Positions 2,980-6,980 of a stretch of 64,000 nucleotides of DNA are shown here, piece by piece. Source of the stretch: Lichenostomus cassidix (Eukaryota > Chordata > Aves > Passeriformes > Meliphagidae); contig VLJF02000033.1 of NCBI GenBank assembly GCA_008360975.2, forward strand, positions 3,534,001-3,598,000, read 5' to 3'. Position 1 is the stretch's first letter, and each line of letters begins with the position of its first letter. Under the pieces are notes generated by a model. That model saw only the letters and a list, made by a program, of their open reading frames with translations, had not been told where the DNA came from and searched no databases. Position numbers and translations under genes: made by a program.

Positions 2980-3282
2980 GTGAGTTTGGGAATTTTGGGA
3001 ATTTTCTGGGAATTTTTTGGGAATTTTTGGGGATTTTTTGGGAATTTTTTGGGATTTTTTGGGGTTTTTTGGGGATTTTTTAGGGATTTTTAATGGTATT
3101 TTTCTGATTTTTTACAATTTTTTTGGGAATTTCAAAGTTCTTCCTTCTTAACTTTCATTCCCAAGGTGAATTCTGAGAATTTTGGGGAATTTTTGGGGAT
3201 TTTTGGGAATTTTTTTTGGATTTTGTTTTTTATTTTTTGGGGATTTTCAGGGATTTTTTGAGATTTTTTTGGGAATTTTGAA

Positions 3283-3325
3283 GTTCTCCTCCTACATCAC
3301 CCTTGTTGTGCTCTTCGTGCCCAAG
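3283..3325 (+). pseudogene. Partial copy of GABBR1 TM7 exon, donor edge
   Basis: It reads [13 protein letters not shown] in frame and ends in cccaag followed by gtagga, a variant of the true gtgagt donor. There is no acceptor. Confidence 0.85.
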
Positions 3326-3671
3326 GTAGGAGTTTTTGGAATTCTGGGGATTCTGGGAATTTTTGGGAATTTTTGGGATTTTTTGGGGTTTTGGGGGGAT
3401 TTTTTGGGATTTTTTTTTGATTTTTTGGGCGTTTTTTTCTGATTTTTGGGGATTTTTTTTTGATTTTTGGTGATTTTTTTGAGATTTTTTTTGGGTTTTG
3501 GAGAATTTTTAAGTTCTTCCTTCTTAACCTTCATTCCCAAGGTGAATTTCTGGGAATTTTGGGGAAATTTTGGAGACTTTTCTGGGGATTTTTGGAGAAT
3601 TTTGGGATTTTTTTGGGATTTTTTTGGGGATTTTTTGGGATTTTTTTGCGGCATATTCATGGAATTTTGAA

Positions 3672-3714
3672 GTTCTCCTCCTACATCACCCTCGTCGTGC
3701 TCTTTGTGCCCAAG
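3672..3714 (+). pseudogene. Partial copy of GABBR1 TM7 exon, donor edge
   Basis: The last roughly 40 bp of the exon are preserved ([13 protein letters not shown]) with a gtgaga donor at 3715. Confidence 0.85.
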
Positions 3715-4039
3715 GTGAGATTTTTTGGAATTCTGGGGATTCTGGGAATTTTTGGGAATTTTTGGGGATTTTTTGGAATTTTTTGGGGTTTTTTTGGGAA
3801 TTTTTTGGGATTTTTTTTTGGCTTTTTTGGGGATTTTTTGGGGATTTTTAATGGTATTTTTCTGATTTTTTACAATTTTTTGGGGAATTTCAAAGTTCTT
3901 CCTTCTTAACTTTCATTCCCAAGGTGAATTCTGAGAATTTTGGGGAATTTTTGGGGATTTTTGGGATTTTTTGGGGGATTTTTTTTATTTTTTGGGGATT
4001 TTCAGGGATTTTTTGAGATTTTTTGGGAAATTTCAAACT

Positions 4040-4078
4040 CCCTCCTACATCACCCTCGTGGTCCTCTTCGTGCCCAAG
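4040..4078 (+). pseudogene. Partial copy of GABBR1 TM7 exon, donor edge
   Basis: It reads [12 protein letters not shown] with silent changes and a gtgaga donor at 4079. The 5' flank is diverged (caaactccctcc). Confidence 0.85.
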
Positions 4079-4380
4079 GTGAGATTTTTTGGAATTCTGG
4101 GGGTTTTGGGAATTTTTTGGGATTTTTTGGGAATTTTTGGGAATTTTTTGGGATTTTTTTGGGAATTTTTTGGGGTTTTTTTGAGATTTTTTTCGTATTT
4201 TTGGGGAATTTCGAGTTCTTTCTCTTTAACTTTCATTCCCAAGGTGAATTTCTGAGAATTTTGGGGAAATTTTGGGGAATTTTGGGGATTTTTGGGGAAT
4301 TTTTGGGAGATTTTTTTGGGATTTTTGGGGAATTTTGGGGTTTTTTTGGGATTTTTTTGTGGCATATTAATGGAATTTTG

Positions 4381-4425
4381 AAGTTCTCCTCCTACATCAC
4401 CCTCGTGGTGGTCTTCGTGCCCAAG
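4381..4425 (+). pseudogene. Partial copy of GABBR1 TM7 exon, donor edge
   Basis: It reads [13 protein letters not shown], one L-to-V change from the true exon, with a gtgaga donor at 4426. Confidence 0.85.
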
Positions 4426-4740
4426 GTGAGATTTTTTTGGAAATTTGGGAATTTTTGGGGATTTTTTGGGATTTTTTTGGGGGTTTTTGGGATTTTTTGG
4501 GGCATTTTTTAGATTTTTTTGGTGATTTTTGGTGATTTTTTTTTATTTTTCTTGTGAATTTTGGGGATTTTCTGTGATTTTTTTGGGGTTTTTGGAGAAT
4601 TTCAAAGTTCTTCCCTCTTAATCTTCTTTCCCAAGGTGAATTCTGGGAATTTTTGGGAATTTTTAGGGATTTTTTTGGCATTTCTTCGGGTTTTATTGGA
4701 GATATTTTGGGATTTTTTTTTATTTTTGGGGAATTTCGAA

Positions 4741-4781
4741 CTTCCTCCTACATCACCCTTGTCGTGCTCTTCGTGCCCAAG
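4741..4781 (+). pseudogene. Partial copy of GABBR1 TM7 exon, donor edge
   Basis: It reads [12 protein letters not shown] with a gtgaga donor at 4782. The 5' junction (cgaacttcctcc) is shared with the copy at 5114, so these two are close relatives. Confidence 0.85.
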
Positions 4782-5113
4782 GTGAGATTTTTTGGAATTC
4801 TGGGGATTCTGGGAATTTTTGGGAATTTTTTGGGTTTTTTGGGGATTTTTTAGGGAATTTTTTGGGGATTTTTGGGGCATTTTTTTTTATTTTTAGGGAT
4901 TTTTTATGATTTTTTGAATTTCTTTTTTCGTTTTTTTGGGGGATTTTTTTTTTCATTTTTCGGGATTTTTTTGGGATTTCTAAGTTCTTCCTTCTTAATC
5001 TTCTTTTGGGGAATTTTGAAGAATTTTTGGGATTTTTTGGGGATTTTTTTGGATTTTTTGGGGATTTTTTTTTAATTTTTTGGGGATTTTTTTTTATTTT
5101 TGGGGAATTTCGA

Positions 5114-5155
5114 ACTTCCTCCTACATCACCCTCGTGGTGCTCTTCGTGCCCAAG
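5114..5155 (+). pseudogene. Partial copy of GABBR1 TM7 exon, donor edge
   Basis: This is the last and most distal donor-edge copy, with a gtagga donor at 5156 as in the copy at 3283. Confidence 0.85.
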
Positions 5156-5990
5156 GTAGGATTTTTTGGGGAATTTGGGGATTTTTGGGAATTTTTGGGA
5201 TTTTTTGGGATTTTTTTGGGGATTTTTTTGGATTTTTTAGGGATTTTTTTGGGGTTTTTTTAGGATTTTTTGGGGAATTTTTTGGATTTTTTTTGTGATT
5301 TTTTAGAGATTTTTTGGGTTTTTTTGGGGAATTTCGAAGTTCTTGCTTCTTAATTTGAGGAATTTTTGGAAATTTTTTTGGGAATTTTTTCTGGAAAAAT
5401 TGTAAAAAATCAGGGAGAAAATTGTAAAAAAATCATAAAAAATTGGGGAAAAATGGTTTAAAAAATCGGGAAAAATCAGGAAAAAATCATAAAAAAGAGT
5501 AAAAAATCGGGGAAAAATTGTAAAAATATTGGGGAAAAAATTGTGAAAAATCAGAAAAAAAGCATCAAAAAACGTCAAAAAATCGTCACAAAATTGTCAA
5601 AAATTGGGAAAAAATTGGGAAAAAGTCATAAAAAATAGAAAAAAGTTTGGTAAAAAACTGTAAAAATATTGGGGGAAAAATTGTAAAAAAATCAAGAAAA
5701 AAGAGTAAAAAATTGTGAAAAATCGTCAAAAAATCATAAAAAATTGGGAAAAACGGTTAAAAAATCAGGAAAAATCGGGAAAAAGTCATAAAAAATGGTA
5801 AAAAATTGGGGAAAAATTGTAAAAATCTTGGGGAAAAAATGGATAAAAAATCGTTTTAAAATTGCAAAAAATCGTAAAAAAATCATTTAAAATCTGCAAA
5901 AAATCCACGAAAAATCCTAAAAAAAAATCGGAAAAAAGTGGGAAAATCCTGGAATTTTCTGGAATTTTCTGGAATTTTCTGGAATTTTAG

Positions 5991-6020
5991 ATGAGGAGGC
6001 TGATCACCCGTGGGGAGTGG
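5991..6020 (+). pseudogene. Partial copy of GABBR1 coiled-coil exon, acceptor edge
   Basis: It reads [10 protein letters not shown] in frame after a ttttag acceptor and diverges after gagtgg. Confidence 0.85.
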
Positions 6021-6300
6021 CGGGAATTAAAAATATTCATAAAAAATTGGGAAAAATCGTAAAAAACTGGGAAAAAAATCAGGAAAAATCGGGAAAAAGT
6101 CCTAAAAAATAGTAAAAAATTGGGAAAAAATTGGGAAAAAATTGGGGGAAAAATCGTTAAAAATTGGGAAAATAGTTTTAAAAATCTTAAAAATCATTAA
6201 AAATCATTTAAAAATCAAAAATCGCAAAAATCCTAAAAATCCGAAAACAGAAAAAAGTGGGAAAAAGCTGGAAAATCCTGGAATTTTTTTGGAATTCCAG

Positions 6301-6330
6301 ATGAGGAGGCTGATCACACGAGGGGAGTGG
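6301..6330 (+). pseudogene. Partial copy of GABBR1 coiled-coil exon, acceptor edge
   Basis: It reads [10 protein letters not shown] with silent changes (acacgagggg) after a ttccag acceptor, then diverges into repeat. Confidence 0.85.
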
Positions 6331-6980
6331 TGGGAGTTCTAAAAAAACCTTAAAAAATGGGAAAAAATTGGGAAAAATCAAAAAAAATCAGGAAAAAAAT
6401 TTTTAAAAATCAGGAAAAATTGGGAAAAAATTGTTTAAAATCCACAAAAAATCAGGAAAAAATCGAGAAAAATCGGGGGGGAAATAGTAAAAAAATCATT
6501 TAAAAAATCATAAAAATTGGGAGGAAAATCACAAAAAATCAGGAAAAAATCATAAAAAATTTTAAGAAATTGGGAAAAAAATAGCAAAAATTGGGAAAAA
6601 AATTGGGGAAAATTGTGAGAAAAACAGGGAAAAAGGAAAAAAGTCATAAAAAAATCTTTTAAAATCGGGAAAAAATGGTTAAAAAATAGTGAAAAATTGG
6701 GAAAAAGGTTTAAAAAATCAAGAAAAATTCATTTAAAAATAGTAAAAAAATTGGGGGAAAACTTGTAAAAAAAACTTGGGGAAAAAAATTATTAAAAAGT
6801 GGTTAAAGTGTTAAAAAATTGTAAAAAATCGTTTAAAAAAATCATTAAAATCCGCAAAAAATTGTGAAAAAATCATTAAAAATTCACAAAAAATTGTAAA
6901 AAAATCCTAAAAAAAATCGGAAAAAAGCGGGAAAATCCTGGAAAATCCTGGAAAATCCTGGAATTTTTCTGGAATTCCAG

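Follow-up and report, generated by a model that had tools for sequence, protein, structure and literature searches.

In chicken, tandem repeats that carry lateral pieces of exons together with a splice donor or acceptor have been described as sequence stuttering or exon stuttering (Hron et al., 2026; PMC12954441). According to the text of that paper, 1,345 confident matches occur in 236 introns of 115 chicken genes, 190 of these introns lie on dot chromosomes, local expansions were noted in other birds too, and a link to GC-rich coding sequence (GC, guanine plus cytosine) was proposed by the authors as a correlate rather than as part of the definition, the mechanism being left open. Here we describe introns of this kind in a 64,000-nucleotide (nt) stretch of contig VLJF02000033.1 from Lichenostomus cassidix (the window), which contains exons of GABBR1, of RPS5, of a class II alpha-like (DMA-like) gene and of a gene labeled DMB after an earlier note on this DNA, whose large exon has no Pfam match. 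The earlier note had described two-part introns in which copies of the upstream exon's donor edge meet copies of the downstream exon's acceptor edge, and had found no named process to describe them. The structures belong to the published type of instability, exon stuttering, and their anatomy is real and mostly as first described.

The window shares with chicken stuttering the direct tandem arrangement of lateral exon pieces with their splice site, the restriction to the adjoining intron, the intact coding exon and the avian host (PMC12954441). Among the 38 copies found with BLAST (basic local alignment search tool), the exon part measures 23–143 nt (median 40.5), against 20–187 base pairs (bp; median 36 bp) reported for chicken, where more than 90% of the pieces lie within 1 base of the exon border; the weakest copy scores 44.1 bits and the best match in shuffled sequence 34.2 bits, against the chicken cut-off of 42.1 (PMC12954441). 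Features of the window's own are the AT-rich introns, the songbird-like host and four introns with copies from both flanking exons. Neither two-sided introns nor a rule of sides is discussed in the main text of Hron et al. (PMC12954441). In the open-licence literature the two stuttering terms were found in that one paper only, and no paper on two-sided exon stuttering was found there, most subscription papers lying outside the search; the main text of the Vertebrate Genomes Project (VGP) Phase I preprint cites Hron et al. and does not contain the word "stutter."

Two other described systems come close. In human duplicated genes, minisatellite expansion can include an exon-intron boundary, as in the window (De Grassi and Ciccarelli, 2009; PMC2812944); half of the repeats described there lie in coding exons, where they can alter the protein, and those at boundaries can give rise to new introns, whereas each coding exon of the window is present once. 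Intron gain by tandem genomic duplication (e.g., PMC4974935) likewise involves tandem duplication inside a gene, but no new intron is evident in the window, and its copies stand unpaired within an existing intron.

Copies of exon edges in the adjoining introns

Thirteen exons were annotated from splice sites and reading frame, with a GC content of 0.583 (58%) over the annotated exons and 0.338 (34%) over the introns. All 13 were compared by BLAST with the exon-masked window on both strands at a threshold of 36 bits, which gave the 38 copies. Ten block-wise dinucleotide-shuffled windows gave 27 matches of at least 20 nt, none above the top score given earlier, and a chance origin of the copies is excluded. 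All 38 are in direct orientation and lie in the intron adjoining their source exon, and 37 end exactly at the splice border, the remaining one being cut by the end of the window. No copy comprises a whole exon (0/38; the largest share is 60 of 99 nt, from RPS5 exon 4), as expected if whole-exon copies are removed.

A profile search with 21 exon edges, each made of 12 nt of intron and up to 45 nt of exon, used a threshold of at least 14 bits that also had to exceed the best of one shuffled window. It found 62 copies from 11 edges, all direct and in the adjoining intron; for none of the 21 edges did a copy turn up elsewhere in the window or on the other strand. Six more short acceptor copies of the second DMA-like exon were recovered by pattern search (chance expectation 0.04), and together with one cut DMB copy these bring the total to 69 copies (16 donor-side, 53 acceptor-side) from 13 of the 21 edges, spaced from ∼150 to more than 1,000 bp apart. 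The profile search returned no copies for the other eight edges, namely the donor of GABBR1 exon b, the acceptor of GABBR1 exon c, the donor of RPS5 exon 4, the acceptor of RPS5 exon 5, the donor of DMA exon x, the acceptor of DMA exon z, the donor of DMB exon 1 and the acceptor of DMB exon 2.

Splice dinucleotides are almost always intact in the copies: GT is retained in every one of the 15 donor copies that can be read, and AG in 52 of the 53 on the acceptor side (23/23 in one set and 29/29 for RPS5 exon 2, five copies being common to both, and 5/6 for the short DMA copies). Such retention would also be seen if the copies were decoy splice sites kept by selection for a function in alternative or recursive splicing or in slower intron removal. 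We regard this as very improbable, since the exon parts of the BLAST copies are only 0–6% diverged, so that few lost sites are expected even without selection and intact GT or AG alone is no proof of it, and since in the diverged RPS5 array the AG sits within a block that is conserved as a whole. Against the donor consensus, the true GABBR1 site agrees at 9 of 9 positions and its copies agree at 7–8; in the other four exons with scored donor copies, the true donor and the copies score alike. Splicing presumably passes over the decoys because the two sites of an internal exon must lie near each other.

Two-sided introns and the order of copies

The clearest case is the GABBR1 intron at 2980–6980, where a donor array followed by an acceptor array had been proposed and is borne out. 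Six copies of the upstream exon's last 38–42 nt plus the donor (edges at 3325, 3714, 4078, 4425, 4781, and 5155; 94.7–97.6% identical) are followed by two acceptor copies (5991 and 6301), each with the initial 30–31 nt of the downstream exon. The single best composition change point falls at 5394 (log-likelihood gain 342), next to the proposed switch near 5390, with T 0.51 and G 0.25 to its left and A 0.53 and G 0.18 to its right. The donor units have a period of 346–389 bp, and neighboring units, which are dimers, are 73–80% identical: in five of the six intervals a diverged, shorter exon-edge copy stands between the good ones (3160, 3536, 3918, 4238, and 4630), scoring above the best of 200 shuffles at each of the five sites.

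Switches that the earlier note had placed at about 42740 in RPS5 intron 1 and about 32125 in intron 2 correspond to clean change points at 42,760 (gain 358) and 32,132 (gain 573), and no plus-strand BLAST homology of at least 60 nt at E 1e-5 was found between the halves of either intron. For intron 3 the proposal stood in part. This intron is two-sided, with two donor and three acceptor copies, but the switch placed at 26660 is no single boundary: composition changes only weakly, the best point lying at 28,766 (gain 46), and the halves are homologous, the stretch 26322–26649 of the acceptor half being 87% identical to 28358–28693 of the donor half, and 26400–27186, which crosses the proposed switch, being 79% identical to 28469–29287, ∼2.1 kb away. 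A tandem duplication that ran across the switch would produce a duplicated switch of this sort. By BLAST, homology between halves is present in this intron and in none of the other three two-sided introns.

Four of the nine complete introns are thus two-sided: GABBR1 a–b (6 donor, 2 acceptor copies), RPS5 1–2 (3, 29), RPS5 2–3 (3, 6), and RPS5 3–4 (2, 3). In all four, every donor copy precedes every acceptor copy in the sense direction, in agreement with the initial observation that neither kind strays to the other's side. Since the copies of one array are interdependent, we give this order as four of four introns, the fair count, and attach no shuffling-based probability to it. The complete DMA y–z intron has donor copies only, DMA x–y acceptor copies only, and GABBR1 b–c, RPS5 4–5, and DMB 1–2 have none; three further introns, cut by the window or by a gap, are outside the nine. 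Partial versions of the two-sided architecture had also been claimed for the DMA and DMB introns, which proved to be one-sided or without exon copies. Strong change points were found there all the same, at 57,021 in DMA y–z (54317–58019; gain 306) and at 61,574 in DMB 1–2 (60220–63422; gain 446), while all tested introns other than these two and the three with change points at 5394, 42,760, and 32,132 gave gains of at most 51. The sharply two-part DMB 1–2 intron has no exon-edge copies in the profile search, and the two-part DMA y–z intron has one donor copy only; an intron can therefore be two-part without exon copies from both of its edges.

The two arrays of RPS5 intron 1 differ in scale. 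On the donor side, two copies (43915 and 43325) are 100% identical over 48 nt at a period of 590, in units of ∼590 bp that are 98.6% and 94.2% identical to the next; the acceptor side holds 29 units of 146–208 bp (∼180 bp), against three donor copies in this intron. A near-exact exon start is found at six edges of the acceptor array, the exon itself included, and the rest carry common older changes. Five near-perfect copies are thus scattered among 24 diverged ones, the latter, missed by BLAST, having diverged exon parts. An intact copy of the first 92 nt of RPS5 exon 2 lies at 39323–39414; the other four detected by BLAST in this intron span 26–34 nt. The closest relatives of a unit are scattered along the array. 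Higher-order repeats of satellite DNA are likewise built of dimer and block units whose closest relatives are scattered; the arrays of the window resemble them in these respects and differ in being seeded from exon edges inside a gene.

The near-identity of the two nearest 590-bp units and a 500-N gap at 45763–46262, which marks a region that is hard to assemble, would fit an artefact in which noisy long reads of low-complexity DNA were assembled with false repeats. This is the least credible of the explanations we considered. Units differ by substitutions and indels, as the GABBR1 neighbors illustrate, the exon parts carry distinct substitutions, and exons of four genes are involved with their edges intact; a similar structure in chicken PHF8 was checked in raw nanopore reads (PMC12954441).

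Features annotated in the window, with coordinates and supporting evidence
Feature	Coordinates	Strand	Evidence and remarks
Acceptor-edge array of GABBR1 exon a	1122..2850	+	Copies at 1133, 1486, 1841, 2352; BLAST, profile
GABBR1 exon a	2851..2979	+	Splice sites, reading frame; source of both donor-edge and acceptor-edge copies
Donor-edge array of GABBR1 exon a	2980..5394	+	Six copies; BLAST, profile, change point
Acceptor-edge array of GABBR1 exon b	5395..6980	+	Copies at 5991, 6301; BLAST, profile; change point 5394
GABBR1 exon b	6981..7124	+	Splice sites, reading frame, PDB search
RPS5 exon 4	23652..23750	-	tblastn with human RPS5, splice sites
RPS5 intron 3 acceptor-edge array of exon 4	23751..26660	-	Copies 26252, 25145, 24550; BLAST, profile
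RPS5 intron 3 donor side	26661..29390	-	Copies 27860, 27246; contains duplicated switch
RPS5 exon 3	29391..29519	-	tblastn with human RPS5, splice sites
RPS5 intron 2 acceptor-edge array of exon 3	29520..32132	-	6 copies, one common exon/intron junction
RPS5 intron 2 donor-edge array	32133..37231	-	Copies 35730, 35111, 33825 (78 nt of exon 2); BLAST, profile
RPS5 exon 2	37232..37441	-	tblastn with human RPS5, splice sites
RPS5 intron 1 acceptor-edge array of exon 2	37442..42732	-	29 units of ∼180 bp; profile, change point
RPS5 intron 1 donor-edge array	42733..44504	-	Copies 43915, 43325, diverged 42733; BLAST, profile
RPS5 exon 1	44505..44609	-	tblastn with human RPS5, splice site
Acceptor-edge array upstream of DMA-like C1-set exon	46465..48874	+	Copies 46476, 46983, 47720, 79–143 nt of exon; BLAST, profile
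DMA-like class II alpha exon (immunoglobulin C1-set)	48875..49156	+	Reading frame, domain, protein matches
Six short acceptor copies of next DMA-like exon	51619..54187	+	First 13 nt of exon; AG kept in 5/6; pattern search
DMA-like exon (connecting peptide/transmembrane)	54188..54316	+	Splice sites, reading frame
Single donor-edge copy of preceding DMA-like exon	54912..54968	+	57 nt; BLAST, profile
Start of donor-side copy of last complete exon (63423–63713)	63975..64000	+	Cut by window end; BLAST

Origin of the arrays

From the positions, orientation and edges of the copies, their intact splice dinucleotides, the junctions shared in some arrays, the hierarchical units and the one duplicated switch, we infer a molecular mechanism and a selective filter. 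The introns probably arose by exon-intron tandem duplications that were amplified as arrays under purifying selection on the exons, that is, by exon or sequence stuttering as in chicken. Of the two ends of a founding tandem duplication, one would fall within an exon and one in the adjoining intron; the exon would stay whole, and a partial exon with its splice site would be placed in the intron. Homology-driven steps (slippage, unequal exchange, or conversion) would then multiply and rearrange the new repeat into arrays, dimers and block duplications, while selection would remove whole-exon duplications, exon damage, and any acceptor copy lying upstream of a nearby donor copy. A duplication ending in exon A would place its copy downstream of A and one ending in the following exon B upstream of B, so that arrays seeded from both edges would meet somewhere within the intron. 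With whole-exon and exon-to-exon duplications removed, this geometry would itself yield the side rule, and a special anchoring at edges would be unnecessary. The earlier note had argued for expansion anchored at exon edges. The expansion stands, in that copies from 13 of 21 separate edges have one end in the exon, run into the intron and have multiplied; the need for anchoring does not, given that duplication geometry and protected exons suffice, that 8 of the 21 edges are free of copies, and that the two-part DMB and DMA introns lack two-sided copies.

Evidence for founders comes from the sequence on both sides of the copied exon piece. The 60 nt of intron copied along with the splice site have a mean identity of 75–90% to the true edge and in 8 of 11 arrays exceed the 95th percentile of random stretches from the same intron (80%; mean 59%), which indicates that the repeat units span the exon-intron border. 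Within the exon, copies of the GABBR1 donor end at a common breakpoint (38–42 nt, 6/6), as do those of the RPS5 exon 3 acceptor (28 nt, 6/6), and the copies of three arrays agree beyond the breakpoint as well (copy-to-copy identity 0.92–0.98, copy-to-exon 0.42–0.48). A common breakpoint with a common junction sequence points to one founder followed by growth of the array.

Several results weigh against this account. The co-copied intron does not exceed the random 95th percentile in 3 of the 11 arrays, and in 8 of 11 there is no clear sharing past the breakpoint at 60 nt, the mean being 0.64–0.72 in seven (random mean 0.59) and the eighth consisting of a single copy. Acceptor copies of one exon can have several within-exon ends (26–34 and 92 nt for RPS5 exon 2, 23 and 44–46 nt for GABBR1 exon a, 79 and 143 nt for DMA exon x), which implies more than one founder or later deletions. 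Similarity between units of the RPS5 intron 1 acceptor array is flat with distance (0.720 at offset 1, 0.753 at offset 18); stepwise slippage between nearest neighbors is therefore insufficient, and block duplication or conversion is indicated. Simulations speak for the account at short steps and against it at long ones. In toy models with a starting intron of 500 bp, exons of 140 bp and arbitrary rates, random-end duplications gave the segregated order in 200 of 218, 125 of 202, and 60 of 174 two-sided introns at median steps of 150, 300, and 500 bp, respectively. With homology-driven growth added, two-sided introns became rarer (2 to 30 of 120), and those segregated numbered 27/30, 8/8, and 5/5 at 150 bp, 18/27, 3/5, and 2/3 at 300 bp, and 4/15, 1/6, and 0/2 at 500 bp; at 300 bp and a founder fraction of 0.03, for example, 3 of 120 introns were two-sided, two of them segregated. 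Models with long steps or dominated by growth thus mix the copies more, or yield fewer two-sided introns, than observed, and those with homology-driven growth do not fit all features at once, so that the frequent capture of both edges (4/9) is not fully explained. On these toy models the side rule would be expected if founding steps were short, and would be stricter than expected if they were long.

Exon parts differ from their surroundings in divergence. At all 11 edges with BLAST-detected copies substitutions are scarcer in the exon part (0–6.3%) than in the 150 nt of intron beside it (2.7–13.4%), and so are gaps, which the exon part lacks at 10 of the 11 edges. One could read this as refreshment from the exon in a templated process in which each copy is made straight from an exon edge by machinery that recognizes the border, with no amplification of an earlier duplication; repair linked to chromatin, transcription or splicing would be a candidate. 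Copies at 13 of 21 edges, the exact border in 37 of 38 BLAST copies and the five near-perfect copies among 24 diverged ones in RPS5 intron 1 would fit such a process. We nevertheless think it improbable: it does not sit well with the common within-exon breakpoints, the junction sequence common to copies in three arrays, the GABBR1 dimers, the eight edges without copies or the two-part introns without two-sided exon copies, and the low divergence itself is partly due to ascertainment, as BLAST favors conserved copies, and partly to the fast mutation expected of low-complexity flanks.

A related but distinct reading, somewhat less doubtful though still unlikely, is that gene conversion from the selected exon, as a master sequence, repeatedly renews the copies nearby, in which case exon-like fragments would persist much longer than flanks in the arrays and copies could pass changes back into coding exons. 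The lower divergence of exon parts at 11 of 11 edges, the scattered near-perfect copies of RPS5 exon 2, and the distance-independent similarity of units are consistent with it. Ascertainment and fast mutation of simple-sequence flanks could also explain these signs, and we keep conversion as an open reading only.

Two further ideas were rejected, and one candidate exception to the side rule was weighed. Transcription-linked asymmetry of composition was set aside because sense-strand GC skew runs from −0.94 to +0.66 over 12 introns with inconsistent sign. Separately, skew stays near −0.95 or +0.97 for kilobases in places (e.g., 7500–10500 and 20000–22500), its sign not being fixed with respect to transcription. 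G-quadruplex-like motifs cover more of one strand than in shuffled sequence (five shuffles each) in only 10 of 12 introns; coverage is 0.00 in DMA 54317–58019 and 0.03, equal to shuffles, in RPS5 intron 2, so the motif is not a general cause. The possible exception lay in the DMA intron with the six short acceptor copies, each of which is followed by 4 nt and then by GGGGTGAAT, which puts a donor-like GTGAAT 20 nt beyond the AG. The string TTGGGGTGAATTT, which resembles the upstream donor, is present eight times in this intron, six times shortly after an acceptor copy. A whole-intron duplication could have produced this pattern against the side rule, but a donor origin of TTGGGGTGAATTT is unsupported at 150 nt: aligned to the true donor start, the eight sites rank in the top 0.4–3.4% of intron windows at 40 nt and in the top 10–32% at 150 nt. 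With their donor-like GGG/GTGAAT, the six short copies (51619–53745) resemble tiny pseudo-exons having both splice sites.

Genes of the window and wider meaning

GABBR1 was identified by a PDB sequence match covering 60 of 60 residues of a joined exon b/c query, and RPS5 by tblastn with a human RPS5 query and a Pfam Ribosomal_S7 match. GABBR1 exons a–c and RPS5 exons 1–5 have open frames and intron-facing GT/AG borders; these coding exons are intact, and the repeats do not run across them. The DMA-like gene has an immunoglobulin C1-set domain (Pfam), and its nearest proteins are DM alpha chains from 11 birds, all of them songbirds, at 44–49% identity. Chicken chromosome 16 carries the chicken major histocompatibility complex. 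That chromosome is listed as one of ten chicken dot chromosomes (Huang et al., 2023). The N gap lies between RPS5 and the DMA-like gene, and upstream DMA exons may be inside it. Elsewhere, a complex sequence, CTCCTGCTCTCCGCTCACTTCCACCTCACCCTGGACC, follows an AG at 8699–8740 in the otherwise simple C/T array of the GABBR1 b–c intron, and an array at 60240–61560 in the first DMB intron has units that carry GCTCCGCCCTATAAGATTTGGGG, a GC-box/TATA-like string.

The window offers a worked example, outside chicken, of a recently named genome instability in the AT-rich introns of a songbird-like bird. What the window adds is these two-sided examples, an acceptor array of 29 units, a switch that is itself duplicated, and an explanation of the side rule that is simple and can be tested. 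RPS5 intron 1 is a natural intron with 29 decoy acceptors, which splicing presumably ignores. Because exon-edge arrays occur here in AT-rich introns, GC-rich introns are not required for stuttering. The simple rule that the window suggests, donor copies upstream, acceptor copies downstream and at most a duplicated switch, is countable genome-wide, and counting side order across the genome could separate plain tandem duplication from edge-anchored copying.

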